Of a stretch of 64,000 nucleotides of DNA, positions 55,612 to 64,000 are shown one piece after another. This stretch comes from Amycolatopsis endophytica. Lineage in GTDB: Bacteria; Actinomycetota; Actinomycetes; Mycobacteriales; Pseudonocardiaceae. The stretch's first letter is position 1. Each line of letters starts with the position of its first letter. The notes below the pieces were generated by a model. That model made no database searches. It was not told where the DNA came from and was given only the letters and a program-made list of their open reading frames with translations. Location: positions 3,038,001-3,102,000 of the forward strand of contig NZ_JACCFK010000001.1 of assembly GCF_013410405.1 (NCBI RefSeq), read 5' to 3'. The position numbers and the translations under genes are program-made.

Positions 55612-56334
55612 CTACGACGGCGCCGATACCGCATATTGGCTGTGTCGGGTTCGTGTGACACCGCTTGTCGGTCTCGTTCGACACCGTTTGGTGGAGGACT
55701 CGTTCGACGCGATGGCGACCGATGCCTTCTCTTCTCTCTCGGTGAGGACTTGGAACAGCAACTCTGCGCCGCGTCGGTCGAGCTGCATGTAGCCGAGCTC
55801 GTCGATGCAGAGAAGGTCGACCCTGCCGTAGCGGGCGATGATCTTTGAGAGGATCTTCTCGTCGGCGGCTTCGACGAGCTCGTTCGCGAGCGTGGTCGCC
55901 AGGGTGTACTTCACGCGGTGGCCGATCATCGCGGCCTCGGTGCCAAGGGCGATGAGCAGGTGGGACTTTCCTGTTCCGGAGTCGCCGATGAGACACAGCG
56001 GCTGGCCCTTCTTTACCCATTCGCATTTGGCGAGGGTGTGGACTGCTGCCGGGTCGATGTTGGGGTTGGCGTCGAAGTCGAACGCGCGAAGGGACTTCTC
56101 TCTGGGGAACCGTGCGGCTTTGATGCGGCGCTCACAGCGTCGGCGGGCTCGGTCGTCGCATTCGGCGAGGAGCAGTTCGGCGAGGAATCCTCGGTAGGAC
56201 ATCTGCTCGGCTGCGGCGCGGTCGGCCTGGTCGGGAAAGTCCTGTCTGACGGTGGGTAGGCGGAGCATGCGGCAGGCGTGATCGATGGCCGCGTCAGCAG
56301 CCTCTTCGGTCATCCCGCGATGGCGGCTGGTCAT
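55612..56334 (-). pseudogene. istB: istB, IS21 helper ATPase, C-terminally truncated
   Basis: A 240-residue frame. The AAA+ ATPase core is intact: Walker A GDSGTGKSH, Walker B LLCIDELGYMQLDRRGAELL and sensor EREEKASVAIASNES. After SNES (about 55695) the usual GWTKTFTDPRL ending is lost and the frame runs into what looks like terminal-repeat sequence. The ATG at 56334 overlaps the istA stop by 1 bp. It assists IstA in target capture in intact elements. Confidence 0.78.
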
Positions 56335-57938
56335 CAGGTTCCTCCTTCGTTGGTGCGGCGCGGGCGGCGCAGCAGCTGGTCGTACTGGGTGACGGTCGGC
56401 AACGGGCGTGGATCGTCGGGCGGGGGCCTGCGGAGTCGGCGTTCGGTGAGCGACGAGATGCCCTCGGTGTCGTTGGCTGCCTGAGCGGTCGTGCCGTTGT
56501 CGATGTCGTCATTCCCGGCGGTGTCGTTGGCTTTGCGGGCTTCGAGTGCAACAACGTCGGCCGTGTACCCGCCGGCTTGAAGTGCGGCGGCGAGGCCGGC
56601 GACGACGTGCTCGTGCGGGAGGTGGCGGTGCAGCAGCAGTACCTCAATCAACGCCCGGGTTCCGTCGGCATCGCTGTGGGCCTTACGTGCGCCAGCCCAC
56701 CATTCGTCGTGGATCGGGGTGAACCTGCCTGCCTTCCGAGCCTGGTCGAGCGCGGTCGCTCCGGGTAGTGCGACGGGCTTGCGGAGGAGCATCTCGAGGT
56801 AATGATCCAGGTCGAGCTGGCTTCCGCCCTTGGTCATCAGGCGCTCGTGTCGAGCAACGACAGTTTGGTCGCCGTGGACGACCAGCTCGGACGCGTGCAG
56901 CAGCACCCGGAGTTTCCTGCCGACGTAGCGGGCGGGGACGGAGTACATGTTCATCCGAACCGTGACTTGAGCGAACCTGTCTACCCGTGGGGTGAACCAG
57001 CGACCCGTTTCAAAAGATTCGTCCGGGAGCGGCGCGAGGAGCGGTTGTTCGGTGCCGAAGTGCTCGCCGACCGTGTGGACGCGCGACGCGATCCGCCGGT
57101 CGTCGTCGGCGGCGTCCCAGGCGTCGATCATGGCGTTGAGTTCGTCGATCGAGTCGGCCTCGGGGATGGGGACGAGGTGCTTGCGGCGGACCCAGCCGAT
57201 GTCGCCCTCGACCCCGCCCTTCTCGTGCGCGCCCTGGATTCCGGGCTGTCAGTAGAAGGCATCGATGCCGTAGTGCGACCGGAACGCGGTCCAGCGATCG
57301 GTCTCAACCCGCTGCCGGGAGAATCCGATCACCCTGGCCACGGCGGCCTTGAGATTGTCGTAGCGGATCTTCCCCGTCGGCACCCCGCCCAGGATGCTGA
57401 AGGCGTGAGCGTGGCCCTCGAAGAACGCTTCCTGTCCAGCCGAAGCGCTGATGCGGTGGACGGCCTTGCCGGAGTACGACAGCCGCAGGCTGAACATGGT
57501 GCACGTCGCCAGCTCGCCACGCAGTCGAACTACGATCCCGCCGAAGTCGACCTCGGCCTCACGGCCAGGCAGGTGGGTTTGCGGGATGAACGTGTTCGCG
57601 GGCTCGCGGCTGGCTTCGATGCGGATCTCGCGGCGGCGGGTCGCGACGTAGTCGCGCACCATCCCGTACGAAACAGCCCCGGCAGCGCCGTGCTCGTCCA
57701 GGAGTCGGTCGAAGATGCGCTTCGCGGTGTGGCGCTGCTTCCTCGGCGCGTCCAGGTCGTCTCGCAGCCAGCGGTCGATGACCTCCCGGTACGGGTCGAG
57801 GCGGGATCCGCATTTCGGTGGTGGTTTCGGCTGCTTGGGCCATGCAGACTCCAACGCCGCAGCAACAGTGCGGTAACCGACACCGTGCTTGCGCTGCAGC
57901 GCGCGCCATGTGCTGCTCGGGTCCAGCTCAGTGGCAGG
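55641..57938 (-). mobile_element. IS21-family relic
   Basis: Degenerate istA (upstream) and istB (downstream) on the minus strand, with a terminal-repeat-like end near 55641-55690 (TGTGTCGGGTTCGTGTGACA). istB loses its C-terminus at that end, and istA lacks its N-terminal residues at the other, where it meets the stop codon of an SRPBCC gene. The element therefore looks truncated on both sides and cannot move. Confidence 0.75.
56334..57938 (-). pseudogene. istA: istA, IS21 transposase, nonsense mutated and N-truncated
   Basis: One frame reads from STWRALQRKHGVGYRTVAAA (about 57910) to the end at 56334. It is interrupted by TGA at 57249-57251, where the conserved Cys of the IstA motif (normally YCxPG, here FY-stop-QPGIQGAHEKGGVEG) has become a stop. 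The rve integrase core is otherwise recognisable (EVDFGGIVVRLRG, ISASAGQEAFFEGHAHAF, TGKIRYDNLKAAV). The N-terminal HTH region upstream of about 57938 is missing. Confidence 0.8.
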
Positions 57939-58430
57939 TCAGTTCGCCTCTTGGGAGACGTCCGTCCCATGCTCGGCGAACGCCTTGAAGTCCTGCATGT
58001 GCTGCCGTGATTGTTTGCGGAAGGTGCCGGGCATCAGACGTCCCATCAGCCGCATCAGCAACCCGTCCAACCGGAACTCGCTCTCGCTCTCCCACAGAGT
58101 CGTGTTCGGACCAGCGTCGGTGATTCGGTCTCGTTGAGCCTGCCACGTACCCCCGCCGACAATCTCGCGGTCGTAGTGCACGGCAACCGAACTCGGGATG
58201 GCGTGCAGATCTGCGGGTTCCAGGCGCGTGATGGTCTCGGTCGCCTCCATCCTCTGCTTCCCCATTTGAAACACGACTCGCGAGGTGGTGCCGAGCTGCC
58301 CGTGTACCCCGTTGACCGGCTCGTGCAGTACCAGGCCACGCAGCCACTTCGGCATCTGCGCCGGGTCGGAGATCAGGTCGACCACCTTCTGGCGAGGCAG
58401 GGCGATCTCGATCGAGGTCGTGTACTTCAT
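57939..58430 (-). CDS. SRPBCC-family protein
   Basis: A 163-residue START/SRPBCC fold protein: YTTSIEIALPRQKVVDLISD, PAQMPKWLRGLVLHEPVNGV, IPSSVAVHYDREIVGGGTWQ and TTLWESESEFRLDGLLMRLM. Such proteins bind hydrophobic ligands. ATG at 58430 overlaps the preceding stop by one base (TGATG), so it is translated from the ArsR operon. Downstream lies the broken IS21 element. Ligand unknown. Confidence 0.82.
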   Translation of the reverse strand: MKYTTSIEIALPRQKVVDLISDPAQMPKWLRGLVLHEPVNGVHGQLGTTSRVVFQMGKQRMEATETITRLEPADLHAIPSSVAVHYDREIVGGGTWQAQRDRITDAGPNTTLWESESEFRLDGLLMRLMGRLMPGTFRKQSRQHMQDFKAFAEHGTDVSQEAN

Positions 58431-59077
58431 CACTCGTTGCCTCCAGGGGCGTAGAACGCGGTGGTGGCCGCCACCGCGGCCGCCACGTGATTCGGATCGC
58501 CGCCGCCGGCCAGATGAGCTTCGCCCCATGCCGCGGCGCTGCGCCGAGCGAACTCGCGCCCTTCGGGCAAGGCCCGGAACTCGTTGTGGTCGAGGGTCTC
58601 GCCATCGGCGAGGAACCCGGCCAGGGTGAGTAGATGCAGGTCCCAGCCGACGCCGCCGGCACCGGGTCCGTAGGTCGGGAACATGGGCTCCCCGACGGCT
58701 GCTGCATGGACAAGTTCGAACTCGGTGCCCCCGGATTGGCCGCGGGACAGGCGAACCTCGACCTCGCTCGTCCCCGGCCACTCATCGGCCTCCGGCCCGA
58801 ACAGCCAGGACACTCGCAGCCGCTGCGGTGGGTCGCAGGCGAGGATCTCGCCGTGCTCACCGCCGTCCAGCTCGAACGATCCACCCAGCCGCAGGTCCCC
58901 GGTCACAGGCTTCAACCAGCGGCCCAGTCGCTCGGGGTCTGTGATGGCGTTCCACACGTCGTCGACCGGCGCGTCGTAGTGACGCCGCAACTCGATCGTG
59001 TACGCGTCGCCGGCGGGCAGGGTCGCTGAGCCCATCGTCCGGCGTGCAGCGGCCAGCTCGTCCAGTACGTCCTTCAC
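58430..59077 (-). CDS. AHSA1/SRPBCC-domain protein
   Basis: A 215-residue protein. The AHSA1-like domain (about 25-150) has IELRRHYDAPVDDVWNAITD, LGRWLKPVTGDLRLGGSFEL, EILACDPPQRLRVSWLFGPE and TEFELVHAAAVGEP. GTG at 59077 has AAAGGAATA upstream and begins 1 nt after the ArsR stop. ArsR plus AHSA1-type pairs are a common two-gene unit in actinomycetes. Ligand unknown. Confidence 0.82.
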   Translation of the reverse strand: MKDVLDELAAARRTMGSATLPAGDAYTIELRRHYDAPVDDVWNAITDPERLGRWLKPVTGDLRLGGSFELDGGEHGEILACDPPQRLRVSWLFGPEADEWPGTSEVEVRLSRGQSGGTEFELVHAAAVGEPMFPTYGPGAGGVGWDLHLLTLAGFLADGETLDHNEFRALPEGREFARRSAAAWGEAHLAGGGDPNHVAAAVAATTAFYAPGGNE

Positions 59078-59078
59078 T

Positions 59079-59447
59079 TCATATTCCTTTCGCTGGCCGA
59101 TCGGCCTGGCCATCGCCTCGGGGACGGGATGCACGCTTGCCGCGGGCCAGCTCGGTTCCGAGGGCATCGAGCCGCTGATCCCAGAACCCGCGAAATCGGT
59201 CCAACCACACGTCGACCTCGCTCAGCGGGGAGGGGTCGACGGCATAGAACCGACGTGCCCCCTCAGCTCGAACCGACGCGAACCCGTTCTCACGAAGGAC
59301 GCGCAGATGCTGGGAGACCGCTGGTTGAGACAGTGCGAACTCGGACCGGATCACCTCTGTGATCGCGCCAGAGGTGTGCTCGCCATCGGCGAGCAGCTCC
59401 AGGATGCGCCGGCGCACCGGGTCACCGAGGATGTCGAACGCGTGCAC
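59079..59447 (-). CDS. ArsR-family regulator
   Basis: A 122-residue winged-helix regulator: VHAFDILGDPVRRRILELLA, HTSGAITEVIRSEFALSQPA, VSQHLRVLRENGFASVRAEG and ARRFYAVDPSPLSEVDVWLD. No ArsR metal-binding CxC motif is present. GTG at 59447 is preferred over a longer start. First gene of the operon with the two SRPBCC genes, which it probably represses through the AT-rich promoter at 59458-59490. Confidence 0.88.
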   Translation of the reverse strand: MHAFDILGDPVRRRILELLADGEHTSGAITEVIRSEFALSQPAVSQHLRVLRENGFASVRAEGARRFYAVDPSPLSEVDVWLDRFRGFWDQRLDALGTELARGKRASRPRGDGQADRPAKGI

Positions 59448-59594
59448 ACCCGAATCGTACCAGTTATGGTTTATATAAGCCACGGCTGGCATGCTCGGCG
59501 AGCGGTGTTGGCTCCCATCGACATCCGATCCGTCTCACCAATGCTGGAGTTGACCGAGACCGACATCCGGTGTCAGGTGAGACCGACATAGCCA

Positions 59595-59653
59595 GCATAT
59601 CGCCGGCATATCCAAAAAGACATACGTGCAGGCAACATCGCTCCGCCTTGACT
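59595..59653 (+). promoter_or_regulatory. Probable VanR site and promoter of the vanK remnant
   Basis: GCATATC occurs at 59595-59601 and 59606-59612, an 11-bp spacing typical of OmpR/PhoB-type regulators. It is followed by AAAAA, CATACGTGC-GGCAAC and CCTTGACT. The whole arrangement is repeated upstream of vanH (62405-62463). Two GAGACCGACAT direct repeats (59556-59566 and 59579-59589) lie further up. Confidence 0.65.
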
Positions 59654-59659
59654 GGAGAC

Positions 59660-59725
59660 ATGCCGGATCGCGACTCACCCCGCACAACAGCCCAAGTTCT
59701 GGCGGCTTCCTCTCCATCCACATGA
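59660..59725 (+). CDS. 21-residue leader ORF coupled to the vanK remnant
   Basis: ATG at 59660, 4 nt after GGAG, opens a 21-codon frame beginning MPDRDSPRTT. Its TGA at 59723-59725 overlaps the vanK ATG (ATGA). The equivalent stretch in front of vanH is open in frame with MSLTVF, as if the same leader had been fused there. It may be a genuine leader peptide or just a conserved 5' leader. Confidence 0.4.
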   Translation: MPDRDSPRTTAQVLAASSPST

Positions 59726-60210
59726 GCCTGACCGTTTGTTCGATCAGCGGGGCCGGCCGCTTGGCCTTCATCCGAACACAGCGGAAAGCCAGCTTCTTCC
59801 AAACGCCGGCTTGGGGTCGCGTCAAGACCGAATGGCACAGCGATTCCCTTGGCTGGTACGACCGCCCGCGGCTGGTCGGGGCAGGTCTGGTTCTGTACCG
59901 GCCGGTGCCAAGGTTAGAGCGCTGGAGGCTGACCTATCTGCCTTGGGGTGGCATTGCTGACCCGACAAGGAAACGACTCACTCAGATGCCGAGCGAGGAG
60001 GAAGACCTCGTCGGTACTCAGGTGGTCAGCCAGCTCGCGGAGGCGGGTTGGCTACTGCAAAGCCCAGAAGACGGCTTCGGAGCCGGGCAGCCCCAGTTCA
60101 CCTACGAGATTACGCTGCGTCATCCCAGCGGCACCATGAGGACGGAGGATGACCTGCTCAGCGGCATGAACCAGTTGTGGCGTCGCAATATCCGAGATCT
60201 CCATGAACCA
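59722..60210 (+). pseudogene. vanK: vanK/femX-like peptidyltransferase remnant
   Basis: From ATG 59722 the product resembles actinomycete FemX/VanK: SFFQTPAWGRVKTEWHSDSL then GWYDRPRLVGAGLVLYRPVP and LTYLPWGGIAD. After that an internal segment (with the usual MGPPV core) is missing; RLTQMPSEEEDLVGTQVVSQ and LAEAGWLLQSPEDGFGAGQP follow, ending at MNQLWRRNIR. The C-terminal half is absent and murF2 begins after about 55 bp. Full FemX proteins have about 350 residues; here about 160. VanK adds the branch amino acid to D-Ala-D-Lac-ended precursors, so this copy cannot do so. Confidence 0.72.
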
Positions 60211-60265
60211 CCGCGAGCGCATGAGGCGACGCGGACGATGAAGCTCCAGTTGATCGGGGTTGGAC

Positions 60266-61609
60266 ATGATTCCGCTCAGTCTCGAAGAGATCGCCAGGGT
60301 TGCCGGCGGCACAGTCGAGGGCGATCGTGCGGTGACGGTGACCGCCCCTGCCGTGCTCGACGGTCGTGCGGCGGAACCGGGTGGACTCTTCGTGGCATTC
60401 GCCGGTGAGCATGTCGATGGCCACGACTATGCCGGTCAAGCCGCACGTGCCGGTGCGGTGGCGGTGATCGGCACGCGGCCCACCTCGCTGCCGACCGTGG
60501 TGGTCGAGGATGTCCAGGCTGCGCTACAGGCGCTCGCCCGTCACGTCGTGGCCCGGCTCCGCGATGGACTCACCGTTCTCGGGGTGACTGGCTCCCAGGG
60601 CAAGACCAGCACCAAGGACCTGCTGACGGCCGTGCTGTCGAGTAGTGCTGCCACTGTCGCAACCGTGGGCTCGCTCAACAACGAGTTCGGTGTGCCACTG
60701 ACCATGCTGCGCGCTGACCCGACCACGCGATTCCTCGTCCTTGAGATGGGGGCCCGTCATGTCGGCCACATTGCTGCTTTCGCCGATCTCGTCGCCCCCG
60801 ATATCGCGGTGGTTCTCAACGTCGGCACTGCTCACCTCGGCAAGTTCGGATCGCAGGCAGCCATAGCCAGGGCCAAGGGCGAGTTGGTGCAGGGGCTGGC
60901 TTCTGGTGGCACTGCGGTTCTCAACGCGGACGACCCCCGAGTGGCTGCGATGCGGACGCTCACCAATGGCCCGGCGCTGACGTTCGGACAAGCCAGGCAC
61001 GCTGACGTGCGCGTACACGATCTGGTGCTGGACCGGCTCGCCCGAGCATCGTTCACACTGCGGACTGCCGAGGCATCCGCACCTGTTGCGCTGTCGATCC
61101 TCGGTGCCCACCAGGCACTCAACGCCTCAGCCGCCGTAGCAGCGGGGCTGGCTGCTGGCGTTCCTCTCGGGGTGGCTGCGACAGCGTTGTCCACCGCCTC
61201 GGTGTCGAAATGGCGGCTGGAGATGCGCGATCTTGCCAACGGCGCGAGGCTGCTCAACGACTCCTACAACGCGCACACCGAGTCGATCCTCGCCGGGCTG
61301 GACACGCTGGCCGCGATCGAAGGGGGGCGACGTATCGCTGTTCTCGGCGAGATGCTGGAGCTTGGCGAGAACAGCGAGCGCGAACATCGAGTCGTCGGTG
61401 AGTATGCCGCCGCACGCGCTGATGTGGTGCTCGTCATCGGAGACGCTGCCCGGCCGATTGCTGAGGGGGCTGGGGACCGAGGGGCGTCGCTGGCCGACAA
61501 CGACGCGGCGGTCGATTGGCTGCGCCGCAATCTCACCGCCGGTGATGTCGTGCTTGTGAAGGCATCGCGCGGGGCGCGTCTCGACGAGGTCGCCTCTGCA
61601 CTCACCTAG
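60266..61609 (+). CDS. murF2: MurF-like UDP-MurNAc-tripeptide:D-alanyl-D-X ligase (MurF2)
   Basis: A 447-residue Mur ligase. The N-terminal UDP-binding domain is about 1-100, the ATP P-loop [13 protein letters not shown] starts at 106, the central domain has [20 protein letters not shown], and the C-terminal domain has [19 protein letters not shown]. It joins a D-Ala-D-X dipeptide to the muramyl tripeptide in the cytosol. A second murF beside vanHAX is known from glycopeptide-producing actinomycetes and is thought to favour D-Ala-D-Lac. ATG 60266 is preferred over TTG 60260. The TAG stop coincides with the IS630 relic junction. Confidence 0.87.
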
Positions 61610-62380
61610 TGCCGTGTCATGCAACGTTGGGTAGGTAATCCGGGCGTCGGATTTCCGAGTCGGGTGCGAAGTGGCGTTTGGGGTGGCAGTGCCGGTTGTG
61701 CCAGCGGACGTAACCGGCGGCTTCCTGGGCGGCGCGAGTGGGGTAGTCGCTGCCGTCGAGGTGAAGTAGCGCAGGGTGGTGAACTCGCATTCGATCCAGT
61801 TGAGCCAGGACGCGTTCTTTGGGGTGTGGACCAGCTCGATGCCGTGTGCCGCGCGCCGGGCGGTGACTTCGGCTTTGCCGTGCGGGCCGTGGTTGTCGCG
61901 GATTGGATAGAGCTTGCCTGTGGGGTAGCGGCGGCGGAGTTGTGTGCAGAAGTCCAGGAATTCCGGCCAGCGTGTGCGGTCGCGGAACGGGTAGAAGATC
62001 TGCCCCGTCGCGGAGGTCCTGCGCGGCGAACAGCTGCCGGATCCCGGCGTGACGGTTGTGGGTCGCGCGGCGGCGGGCTGGGTGTCCGCGGCGGAACCAG
62101 CCGTGTCCGGGTCGGGGTTGCAGGTTCAGCGGCCCGAACTCGTCCACGCAGAGCACTCGCCCGTCGGCGGGTGGATGGTCGTAGAGGTCGAGGACGCGGG
62201 CCATCTTCACGGTGAACTCGGGGCCCTTGCTGGTTTTCCAGGTTTTCGTGCGCTGCCGGGAAATTCCCGCTTCATGCAGAAGCGGTCAGCTTGTTCGGGC
62301 TCCCTCCGGCCCGACGCAACCGGACACGGTCGCGTGTCGACCTGGTGATCTTCACCAGGTTACCTCCGCGACCATCCGGG
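61609..62380 (-). mobile_element. IS630-family element, internally deleted relic
   Basis: The end GTGCCG...CAACGTTGGGTAGG at 61609 is the right end of the intact copy at 42.2-43.3 kb. The transposase reads on the minus strand, ending YLPNVA like the intact one. Deletions remove several hundred bp, so only about 770 bp remain against 1184 bp. The far end is not clear; a CTAG at 62389-62392 is one candidate. Confidence 0.75.
61617..62350 (-). pseudogene. Degenerate IS630 transposase
   Basis: The C-terminal half is readable with frameshifts: ARVLDLYDHPPADGRVLCVD then EFGPLNLQPRPGHGWFRRGH, and RWHNRHCHPKRHFAPDSEIR with RRPDYLPNVA. The middle (second Asp region) is in the wrong frame and the N-terminal part jumps from the early HTH region (VKITRSTRDRVRLRRAG) to the KTWK segment. 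Not functional. Confidence 0.78.
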
Positions 62381-62404
62381 GCACGACTCTAGCGTTCGGG
62401 GCCG

Positions 62405-62463
62405 GTGTATCGGCCGCATATCGAAAATCGCATACGTGCTGGCAACGCCCGGCCCTCTTGACT
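62405..62463 (+). promoter_or_regulatory. Probable VanR site and promoter of vanHA
   Basis: GTGTATC (62405-62411) and GCATATC (62416-62422) are spaced 11 bp, followed by AAAATCGCATACGTGC, TGGCAAC and CTCTTGACTTGAGG. The order and spacing copy those before the vanK remnant, and similarity continues through the leader to the codons MSLTV. A VanR/VanS pair, not in this window, is the expected regulator. Confidence 0.65.
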
Positions 62464-62469
62464 TGAGGC

Positions 62470-63525
62470 ATGGCCTACAGCGAACGGAGTTTGGTCGACA
62501 GTGAAGCGCCAGCCGACAGTCCGAACCGCGCAACAGCCGCGCGGGCTACCTCTGGCCCGTCCGCTATGAGTCTTACGGTCTTCGGCTGTTGCCGGGACGA
62601 AGCCACCTTGTTTCGAGAGATGGGCCGTCGTCTTGGGGTGAGGTTGACGATCACCGAGGCCGCGGTCTGTGAAGGCAACGCTGCGGTGGCGCGTGGAAGC
62701 CGGTGCATCAGCGTGAGTCATAAGACTCAGATCACCAAGTCGACGATTCTGGCGCTGAGCCGCGCGGGCGTGGAATACATTTCCACCAGAAGCATCGGAT
62801 ACAACCACGTCGACGTGGAGTACGCGGCGAGTGTCGGCATCACTGTCGGCAATGTCGATTACTCACCCGACAGCGTGGGCGACTACACCCTGATGTTGAT
62901 GCTGATGGCCGTCCGCAACGCGAAATCCATCATCCGCCGCACCGACGCCCATGACTACCGGTTAGACCAAACGCGCGGCAAAGAACTACGCGACATGACC
63001 ATCGGGGTCATCGGAGTGGGGAAGATCGGCACAGCAGTCATTGACCGGCTGCGCGGTTTCGGCTGCCGCGTGCTCGCCCACGACAGCCAGCCCCACCTCC
63101 CCGGGGGCGACAGCGTTTCGCTCAGTGAACTGTTTCAGAACAGCGACATCGTCTCCCTTCACACGCCCCTGACTCCGCGGACACATCACCTCCTCAATCG
63201 CGAACGCATCGAGCAGATGAAGCACGGCGCCTACGTCATCAACACCGGGCGCGGACCGCTCATCGACACTGCGGCCCTTCTTGCCTCCTTGGAGAACGGT
63301 CACCTGGGCGGTGCGGCGCTGGACGTCCTCGAAGGCGAAGAAGGCATCTTCTACGCCGACTGGAGAGACAAGCCCGTCGAGAACCAGGCCCTCCTGAGGC
63401 TCCAAGCGATGCCGAACGTGCTCATCAGCCCCCACACCGCTTACTACACCGACCACGCCCTGGCCGACACGGTCGAAAACAGCCTTGTCAACTGCATGAG
63501 CTTCGAGAGGAAGAGGACAGTATGA
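62470..63525 (+). CDS. vanH: VanH D-lactate dehydrogenase
   Basis: NAD(P)H-dependent enzyme that reduces pyruvate to D-lactate for D-Ala-D-Lac synthesis. As drawn it has 351 residues; the VanH fold begins at SLTVFGCCRDEATLFREMG, so ATG 62566 (319 residues) is an alternative start and the first 32 residues may be leader. Conserved features: ISTRSIGYNHVDVEYAASVG, the dinucleotide motif GVIGVGKIGTAVIDRL, NTGRGPLIDTAALL with the active-site Arg region, LDVLEGEEGIFY with the Glu, and ISPHTAYYTDHAL with the His. Stop overlaps the vanA start (ATGA), so they are coupled. Confidence 0.92.
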   Translation: MAYSERSLVDSEAPADSPNRATAARATSGPSAMSLTVFGCCRDEATLFREMGRRLGVRLTITEAAVCEGNAAVARGSRCISVSHKTQITKSTILALSRAGVEYISTRSIGYNHVDVEYAASVGITVGNVDYSPDSVGDYTLMLMLMAVRNAKSIIRRTDAHDYRLDQTRGKELRDMTIGVIGVGKIGTAVIDRLRGFGCRVLAHDSQPHLPGGDSVSLSELFQNSDIVSLHTPLTPRTHHLLNRERIEQMKHGAYVINTGRGPLIDTAALLASLENGHLGGAALDVLEGEEGIFYADWRDKPVENQALLRLQAMPNVLISPHTAYYTDHALADTVENSLVNCMSFERKRTV

Positions 63526-64000
63526 GCAAATTGAAGATCGGATTCATCTTCGGCGGTGTATCCGAAGAGCATCCCGTCTCGGTCAAGTCCGCACGTGAGG
63601 TCGCGGCGAATCTTGACACCGAGAAATACGAACCGTTCTGGATTGGCATCACCCGCGACGGCGAGTGGAAACTGTGCAACGACGCTCCCGGGGAAGCCTG
63701 GGAAAGCGGCGATTCGCGCCGGGTCACGCTGTCACCGGATCGCGACGTACACGGGCTGTTCGTTATGGAGTTTGATTGCTACGAGACGATCCGTCTCGAT
63801 CTGGTCTTCCCCATCCTGCACGGCAAGCTCGGCGAAGACGGGGCCATCCAGGGCCTACTCGAACTGTCAGGCATCCCCTACGTCGGCTGCGACATCCCGA
63901 GCTCCGCGCTGTGTATGAACAAAGCCTTGGCCTACACGATCACCAGAAGCGCCGGAATCTCCACACCGAACTTCCGGGTCATCGAAGGTGACGAGAAGGC
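63522..64000 (+). CDS. vanA: VanA-type D-alanine:D-lactate ligase, 5' part
   Basis: The open frame runs off the window after about 159 codons. It starts MSKLKIGFIFGGVSEEHPVS with VKSAREVAANL, the ATP-grasp N-terminal loop of Ddl/VanA, and has VFPILHGKLGEDGAIQGLLE then LSGIPYVGCD and NKALAYTITRSAGISTPNF. The HGKLGEDG segment (rather than HGxxGEDG of plain Ddl) suits D-Ala-D-Lac ligases. The decisive omega-loop residues lie outside the window. ATG overlaps the vanH stop. It ligates D-Ala to D-lactate in glycopeptide resistance or self-protection. Confidence 0.88.
   Translation, partial: MSKLKIGFIFGGVSEEHPVSVKSAREVAANLDTEKYEPFWIGITRDGEWKLCNDAPGEAWESGDSRRVTLSPDRDVHGLFVMEFDCYETIRLDLVFPILHGKLGEDGAIQGLLELSGIPYVGCDIPSSALCMNKALAYTITRSAGISTPNFRVIEGDEK

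Follow-up and report, generated by a model that had tools for sequence, protein, structure and literature searches.

The 64,000-nt stretch of Amycolatopsis endophytica DNA analysed here, hereafter the window (C1:3038001-3102000 of a 7.2-Mb genome in two contigs), ends inside a glycopeptide-resistance (van) locus. We conclude with good confidence that this locus is a decayed vanO-type operon, and that two elements within it, P1 ahead of a vanK remnant (vanK') and P2 ahead of vanH, are promoters of a predicted VanR regulon. The sequence past the window was read as locus L008, reaching window position 76999 (window position = L008 position + 56999). The genes lie in the order vanK'-murF2-[IS630 remnant]-vanH-vanO (split by an IS256-family insertion sequence)-vanX-orf2-murG2, followed on the opposite strand by vanS and then by pieces of vanR. 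A preliminary description of the window had named it an actinomycete van locus with a vanK remnant, and both points are borne out by this gene content. Its expectation of vanX, vanS and vanR beyond position 64000 held for vanX and vanS; vanR is there as broken pieces only. The type of the locus is already known; a general, probably leaderless van promoter cassette, to which P1 and P2 would belong, is the more interesting outcome.

The vanO-type locus and its lesions

At the window locus vanH, vanO and vanX stand in order on the same strand, and vanX is followed by orf2 and a gene like murG; the identity of orf2 rests on its position and on the Rhodococcus oryzae locus (L016). The vanS and vanR genes are transcribed oppositely, as also in R. 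oryzae, which we take to be a trait of the vanO operon. The vanO operon of Rhodococcus equi S7B, reportedly described by Gudeta et al. in 2014 and presumably also with an opposite vanS-vanR pair, has, like the window locus, orf2 and a gene resembling murG after its vanHAX-type genes. Unlike that operon, the window locus has vanK'-murF2 ahead on the same strand, and its vanO, vanR and vanK are broken. Since passages of PMC8698665 describe orf2 and the murG-like gene as belonging to the vanO operon, the window locus is of a known type. In a tree of VanH, VanO and VanX from 79 of 87 loci (eight were left out because a piece was missing, short or contained a stop), it groups with 12 other orf2-bearing loci (support 0.984, long branch), namely those of R. 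oryzae, Nocardia, six Actinomadura, Saccharopolyspora, Tamaricihabitans and two genomes of the same genus as the source. Of 397 genomes of the order searched for orf2, three gave a match, the source genome among them.

The murF2, vanH, vanX, orf2, murG2 and vanS genes are open and of the expected length, vanS (vanS1) as a 366-aa frame with HAMP, HisKA and HATPase domains. VanX passes its NCBIfam cutoff (371.8 bits, cutoff 320). What speaks against the assignment is that VanH, VanS and the VanO piece all fall short of theirs: VanH scores just below the cutoff of its best model, vanH_gen (520.5 bits, cutoff 540), VanS scores 562.3 bits against a cutoff of 720 with VanS-O, by far its best model, and the 5' VanO piece alone, too short for the VanO cutoff of 750, reaches 503.7 bits, the top score among the models listed. 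On that same model the R. oryzae VanO scores 803.9 bits.

Three genes of the locus are damaged. Of vanK, the first 158 residues are left, aligning with an internal gap to residues 1-199 of a VanK of ~376 aa, and the open frame extends to 60408, within murF2. The vanO gene is interrupted by a 1402-bp IS256-family (Transposase_mut) element (L008 7391-8792) bordered on both sides by GGGACTCG, an 8-bp target duplication; an identical copy begins near C1:3239670 with an 8-bp duplication of its own, GGTTCGTC. This insertion leaves no whole D-Ala-D-Lac ligase gene. The local vanR (vanR1) consists of two matching stretches in different frames, the second without ~20 residues of the DNA-binding domain relative to S. 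coelicolor VanR (7LZ9); these should, on our understanding of OmpR-type folds, hold the recognition helix. No local VanR thus has a whole receiver and a whole DNA-binding domain in one frame. An intact operon was rejected, with vanK truncated, vanO split and vanR1 both frameshifted and ~20 residues short. Because vanO is split, D-Ala-D-Lac synthesis from the window locus has most likely been lost, judging from the sequence, and from it we infer the loss of resistance.

The preliminary description had also called the order vanK-murF2-vanHA unusual, and it is. We compared 88 loci (L008, L010-L089 and L116-L122, where L122 is the same locus as L033), scoring murF2 near vanH at 60% identity. No murF2 was found in 62; it lies upstream on the opposite strand in 19 at full length and in three partially (two cut by contig ends), downstream at full length in one (L076), and partially on the same strand in two, from Nocardia (L014) and Actinomadura (L039). 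Of the 88, the window locus alone has a full-length murF2 ahead of vanH in the same orientation. The two partial same-strand copies suggest that this arrangement was once commoner in the vanO group. The S. toyocaensis type (L083) resembles the window in that murF2 adjoins vanH, vanK is nearby and the same element precedes vanH and vanK, and differs in having murF2 on the opposite strand. The further suggestion that murF2 beside van genes marks glycopeptide producers we reject as unsupported: murF2, full or partial, is near vanH in 26 of the 88 loci, which were not screened for glycopeptide clusters, and passages of PMC8698665 record murF with van genes in several orders listed as non-producing.

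Table 1. Features of the van locus within the window
Feature	Position	Strand	Evidence
P1, CATATCG-N4-CATATC..AAAA-N3-CATACG-N4-GGCAAC-N10-CTTGACT	59596..59653	+	2 mismatches/39; spacing as in other van loci
Putative leader mini-ORF, 21 codons + stop, 6 nt past CTTGACT	59660..59725	+	TGA overlaps vanK' ATG (ATGA); same overlap before murF2/vanK in 5 others of 10
vanK remnant (FemAB family; N-terminal part, internal gap, C-terminal half gone)	59722..60195	+	Pfam FemAB E 1.6e-9; tblastn vs full-length VanK
murF2, open, 447 aa	60266..61609	+	Pfam Mur ligase domains; NCBIfam murF 403.9 bits, cutoff 288.6
IS630-type (DDE_3) transposase remnant, between murF2 and vanH promoter	61605..62270	-	starts at murF2 stop codon
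P2, van promoter element	62406..62463	+	2 mismatches/39
vanH, 351 aa from probable leaderless ATG 6 nt past CTTGACT	62470..63525	+	start in frame after element; NCBIfam vanH_gen
vanO/vanA 5' part (D-Ala-D-Lac ligase), runs past window end	63522..64000	+	best NCBIfam model VanO

Some further observations concern the genes around these features. The IS630-type remnant is 80-81% identical to four other sites in the same genome; a Pfam scan of its own frame gave no match, and its homologue, a 362-aa open reading frame (ORF) in L002, is DDE_3 by Pfam. The window contains no known RNA family at gathering score. Upstream of the van locus, all on the minus strand, are an ArsR-type regulator and an AHSA1-domain protein, which adjoin it (58430-59492), and IS21-type genes (IstB and a Mu-type transposase C-terminal domain; 55612-57131). 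orf2 (L008:9578-10222) has no Pfam match above threshold, C39 appearing below threshold in one of three sequences (E 0.097). Its Cys64, Cys68 and His166 are invariant in 14 sequences, and most of the 50 listed Foldseek matches to its AlphaFold model (mean pLDDT 51.9) are papain-like cysteine enzymes (C39 peptidases, phytochelatin synthase and PeiR). As a lead from this low-confidence model, orf2 is a candidate C39/papain-like cysteine peptidase.

A second van locus in the same genome

A VanS search of the source genome gave a second match, in locus L155 (G000:C2:1288000-1307999). This locus holds an open vanR (VanR2, 226 aa), a vanS frameshifted into two frames (vanS2), vanY (vanY2), and alanine-racemase and Ddl-like genes. 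In vanR-vanS, vanY, racemase and Ddl-like genes it is like the vanRSY type of Allonocardiopsis and Murinocardiopsis set out in passages of PMC8698665, from which it differs by the frameshift in vanS. VanR2 aligns with S. coelicolor VanR 7LZ9 over 219 residues with few differences, and with none in the stretch that is absent from vanR1, except at its far edge.

The damage at the two loci is complementary, the window locus having an open vanS and a broken vanR, and L155 an open vanR and a frameshifted vanS. It is possible, if in our judgement unlikely, that two half-broken systems act as one, vanS1 phosphorylating VanR2 and so driving P1, P2 and vanY2, with the loss of a partner at each locus either tolerated or selected. 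The domains of the open vanS1, the closeness of the open VanR2 to 7LZ9 and the lesions of vanS2 and vanR1 would all fit such an arrangement, as would the observation, in sections of PMC9779433, that VanS orthologues of other actinomycetes phosphorylate S. coelicolor VanR. However, the single visible lesion of vanS2 may be a sequencing error, or a shorter protein may be made; and a VanR refractory to phosphorylation by non-cognate kinases appears in passages of PMC7325946. We give far less weight still to the idea that the lesions are assembly errors in an intact, inducible operon: single frame changes, as in vanR1 and vanS2, could be sequencing errors, but one such error would not explain both the frame change of vanR1 and its ~20 missing residues, vanK lacks about half its length, and the vanO insertion shows matching ends together with a target duplication, with a second, identical copy present at another site.

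The promoter element, its link to VanS and its probable control by VanR

Our reading of the window locus as a decayed operon under VanR-type promoters rests, for its second part, on the element that P1 and P2 have in common. Its consensus is CATATCGNNCGCATATCGAAAA-N3-CATACG-N4-GGCAAC-N10-CTTGACT, with 39 fixed positions. P1 reads CATATCGCCGGCATATCC...CATACGTGC..GGCAAC...CTTGACT from 59596 and P2 reads TGTATCGGCCGCATATCG...CATACGTGC..GGCAAC...CTTGACT from 62406; P2 begins 2810 bp after P1, the heptamers are spaced by 11 bp start to start, and the gaps of 3, 4 and 10 are identical in both. Of the ordered promoter motifs named in the preliminary description, the order, the spacing, GGCAAC and CTTGACT are confirmed, whereas an exact GCATATC pair occurs in P1 but not in P2, whose first heptamer is TGTATCG. 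P1 and P2 are the sole sites with at most 3 mismatches to the search pattern in the 7.2-Mb genome, where the reversed pattern has none, and none of 420 dinucleotide-preserving shuffles reached 12 mismatches (best 14). Chance likeness of P1 and P2 was rejected on these grounds.

The element recurs across van loci. When 260 bp upstream of each gene were searched with free gaps (2-5, 2-5 and 8-14) and up to 12 mismatches, it was found before vanH in 83/88 loci, vanK in 20/27 and murF2 in 9/25. Despite the free gaps, all listed sites have spacing 3/4/10, save the one at vanH of L085 (3/4/9). A fixed-gap scan of 1.70 Mb of loci, allowing 11 mismatches, placed 85 sites ahead of vanH, 20 ahead of vanK, nine ahead of murF2 and 58 elsewhere. 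Among these 58, inspected by eye, ~30 precede vanY and five a vanJ-like gene (L017, L048, L060, L061 and L067); one precedes an ABC-transporter ATPase (L027), and three of the four sites in L123 can be assigned to vanH, to vanK and, probably, to murF2 in a locus outside the gene table. The rest are degenerate, lack a long frame or have no identified gene. Two weaker sites, each with 8 mismatches of 39, lie in the source genome, one at vanY2 (L155 8124, minus strand) and one near the broken vanR (L008 13036), where L118 and L119, for example, carry one upstream of vanY. The site is present in 44 of 394 genomes of the class, and the reversed control is absent among the matches listed. In 29 further loci from this set, 30 sites precede vanY (14), vanH (10), vanK (1) and a vanZ-like gene (1), with no match for four; these loci are not fully independent, because some genomes are probably of the same species as earlier loci. 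The VanZ assignment in L154 and the VanY assignment in L118 are confirmed by Pfam. Elements also stand before genes not known as van in L129, L144 and L191, by eye those of TPR-like, serine-hydrolase-like and small, probably secreted proteins, which are possible regulon members.

Presence of the element follows that of VanS. In 100 genomes, the source included, a 3-mismatch pattern found the site in 29 (reversed control 0/100) and VanS was found at E 1e-80 in 34; the site is present in 27 of the 34 genomes with VanS and in two of the 66 without it (Fisher p ~9e-16). Of these two, G006 has the site ahead of a VanH frame that breaks off after 137 aa, and G013 ahead of a 19-aa leader which by eye resembles those of vanH in G002 and G017. 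VanX is missing from nine of the genomes with a site. With one site read per genome, leaving aside a second one in G006 and in G015, it precedes vanY in four of them, the broken VanH and the leader in G006 and G013, and, by eye, a VanZ-like, a serine-hydrolase-like and a TPR-like protein in the other three.

Published work on Streptomyces coelicolor bears on this link. VanR activates its van cluster (sections of PMC6001138 and PMC9739842), VanRS homologues of A. balhimycina can replace its VanRS (passages of PMC7325946), and vancomycin induces its promoter fusions ~20-fold for vanH and ~40-fold for vanJ (sections of PMC9779433). The reverse primer of that vanH fusion, as printed in PMC9779433, reads as the element core. 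Among six loci tried, S. coelicolor not being one of them, it matches best in the vanH element of Kitasatospora (L060; 1 mismatch in 19), the best matches in the other five having 3-5 mismatches and some lying elsewhere; together with the published induction, this match ties the element to an inducible promoter. The vanRSJKHAX cluster of S. coelicolor, with a VanR very like VanR2 and a published vanH primer matching the element core, has no orf2, murG2 or murF2 in its name and is inducible, unlike the decayed window locus. The relevant parts of PMC8329863 and PMC7148328 give no consensus site.

Several observations count against this reading. Seven of the 34 VanS-bearing genomes have no site at 3 mismatches (G008, G039, G049, G071, G073, G074 and G076), and the upstream search found no element at 5/88 vanH, 7/27 vanK and 16/25 murF2 genes. 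The consensus comes from an alignment that itself includes P1 and P2, and van loci share descent, so that element counts are not independent events. The published vanH fusion, by its primer, appears to end within the element, before CTTGACT, and was yet induced ~20-fold, a result that does not fit an indispensable -10 role for CTTGACT, unless a -10 comes from the vector.

We think it improbable that another regulator or sigma factor, merely accompanying van loci, binds the element. VanR binding is itself predicted, sites occur in G006 and G013 where VanS was not found and before the other genes of L129, L144 and L191; but the association with VanS is tight, the G006 and G013 sites precede a broken VanH frame and a vanH-like leader, and VanR is the activator in S. 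coelicolor. Recent copying of one promoter to the other, with no shared regulator, is very unlikely: some likeness of P1 and P2 does extend past the element into the leader region, but an identically spaced copy of the element is found in many genomes ahead of genes without mutual homology (vanH, vanY, vanK, vanZ-like). The suggestion that one VanR-type regulator serves both promoters is supported, their element preceding vanH, vanK, murF2, vanY, vanZ-like and (by eye) vanJ-like genes in other Actinomycetes. Because the element precedes vanH, vanK and murF2 and tracks VanS, control of P1 and P2 by VanR is likely and well supported by comparison, with binding predicted.

Leaders and a proposed promoter cassette

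Downstream of CTTGACT, 113 sites with at most 9 mismatches have a start codon, usually ATG, at a distance of 6 nt (83 sites), 7 nt (28), 8 nt (1) or 4 nt (1). This codon is in frame with the gene, and the frame open, in 83/84 vanH, 16/20 vanK and 3/9 murF2. Ten of the 11 exceptions were examined; in six, the window vanK' included, the mini-ORF ends in a TGA that overlaps the start of the gene (ATGA or GTGA). The low in-frame count for murF2 and the four of these ten mini-ORFs that end elsewhere than at the start of the gene count against our reading.

As the codon is in frame with vanH in all but one case, VanH probably starts at the ATG at 62470 and van mRNAs are probably leaderless; the 4-8 nt that follow the putative -10 leave no space for the usual Shine-Dalgarno sequence and spacer. 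Taking the A of the ATG as +1 would place CTTGACT over the -10 region and the starts of the repeats near -64 and -53. OmpR/PhoB-type activators have a comparable placement of repeats. In 66 vanH leaders, conservation at the three codon positions is 0.90, 0.84 and 0.78 bits; without a marked excess at positions 1-2, this may reflect selection on nucleotides or likeness from shared descent. Leaderless transcripts are under-represented among glycopeptide-responsive genes according to PMC7947799, the relevant parts of which are silent on whether van transcripts belong to this class.

In relatives with an intact operon, VanR, once phosphorylated by VanS, would bind the CATATCG repeats that lie, 11 bp apart, upstream of CTTGACT, the probable -10 region. 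The mRNA would start at or beside the start codon 6-7 nt past CTTGACT and be translated without a leader; VanH and VanY would thereby gain a short N-terminal tail, and some vanK and murF2 genes would be preceded by a mini-ORF ending on the gene's own start codon (ATGA). In the source strain the local VanR should not bind DNA, and residual control of P1 and P2 would come only through another VanR, of which the second locus has an open one. More generally, we propose, at what we judge to be even chances, that a single conserved cassette drives the van genes of actinomycetes: a fixed-spacing promoter of ~58 bp, a start codon 6-7 nt further on and ~10 conserved codons, giving leaderless mRNAs, with the leader serving as N-terminal tail of VanH and VanY or as a mini-ORF joined, stop over start, to some murF2 and vanK genes, whose own N terminus is thereby preserved. 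The cassette would have moved between genes as a unit and would mark the VanR regulon, including genes not known as van. The sections of the literature searched contain no description of such a cassette or of leaderless van transcription, which is no proof of absence.

The window locus shows a resistance operon in decay, its regulator, accessory gene and ligase broken and its promoters still recognisable, while a second locus retains a matching regulator. A fixed, searchable signature of this kind would allow direct listing of glycopeptide-responsive genes in Actinomycetes. It would also correct the predicted start of VanH, and it predicts leaderless translation of resistance enzymes.

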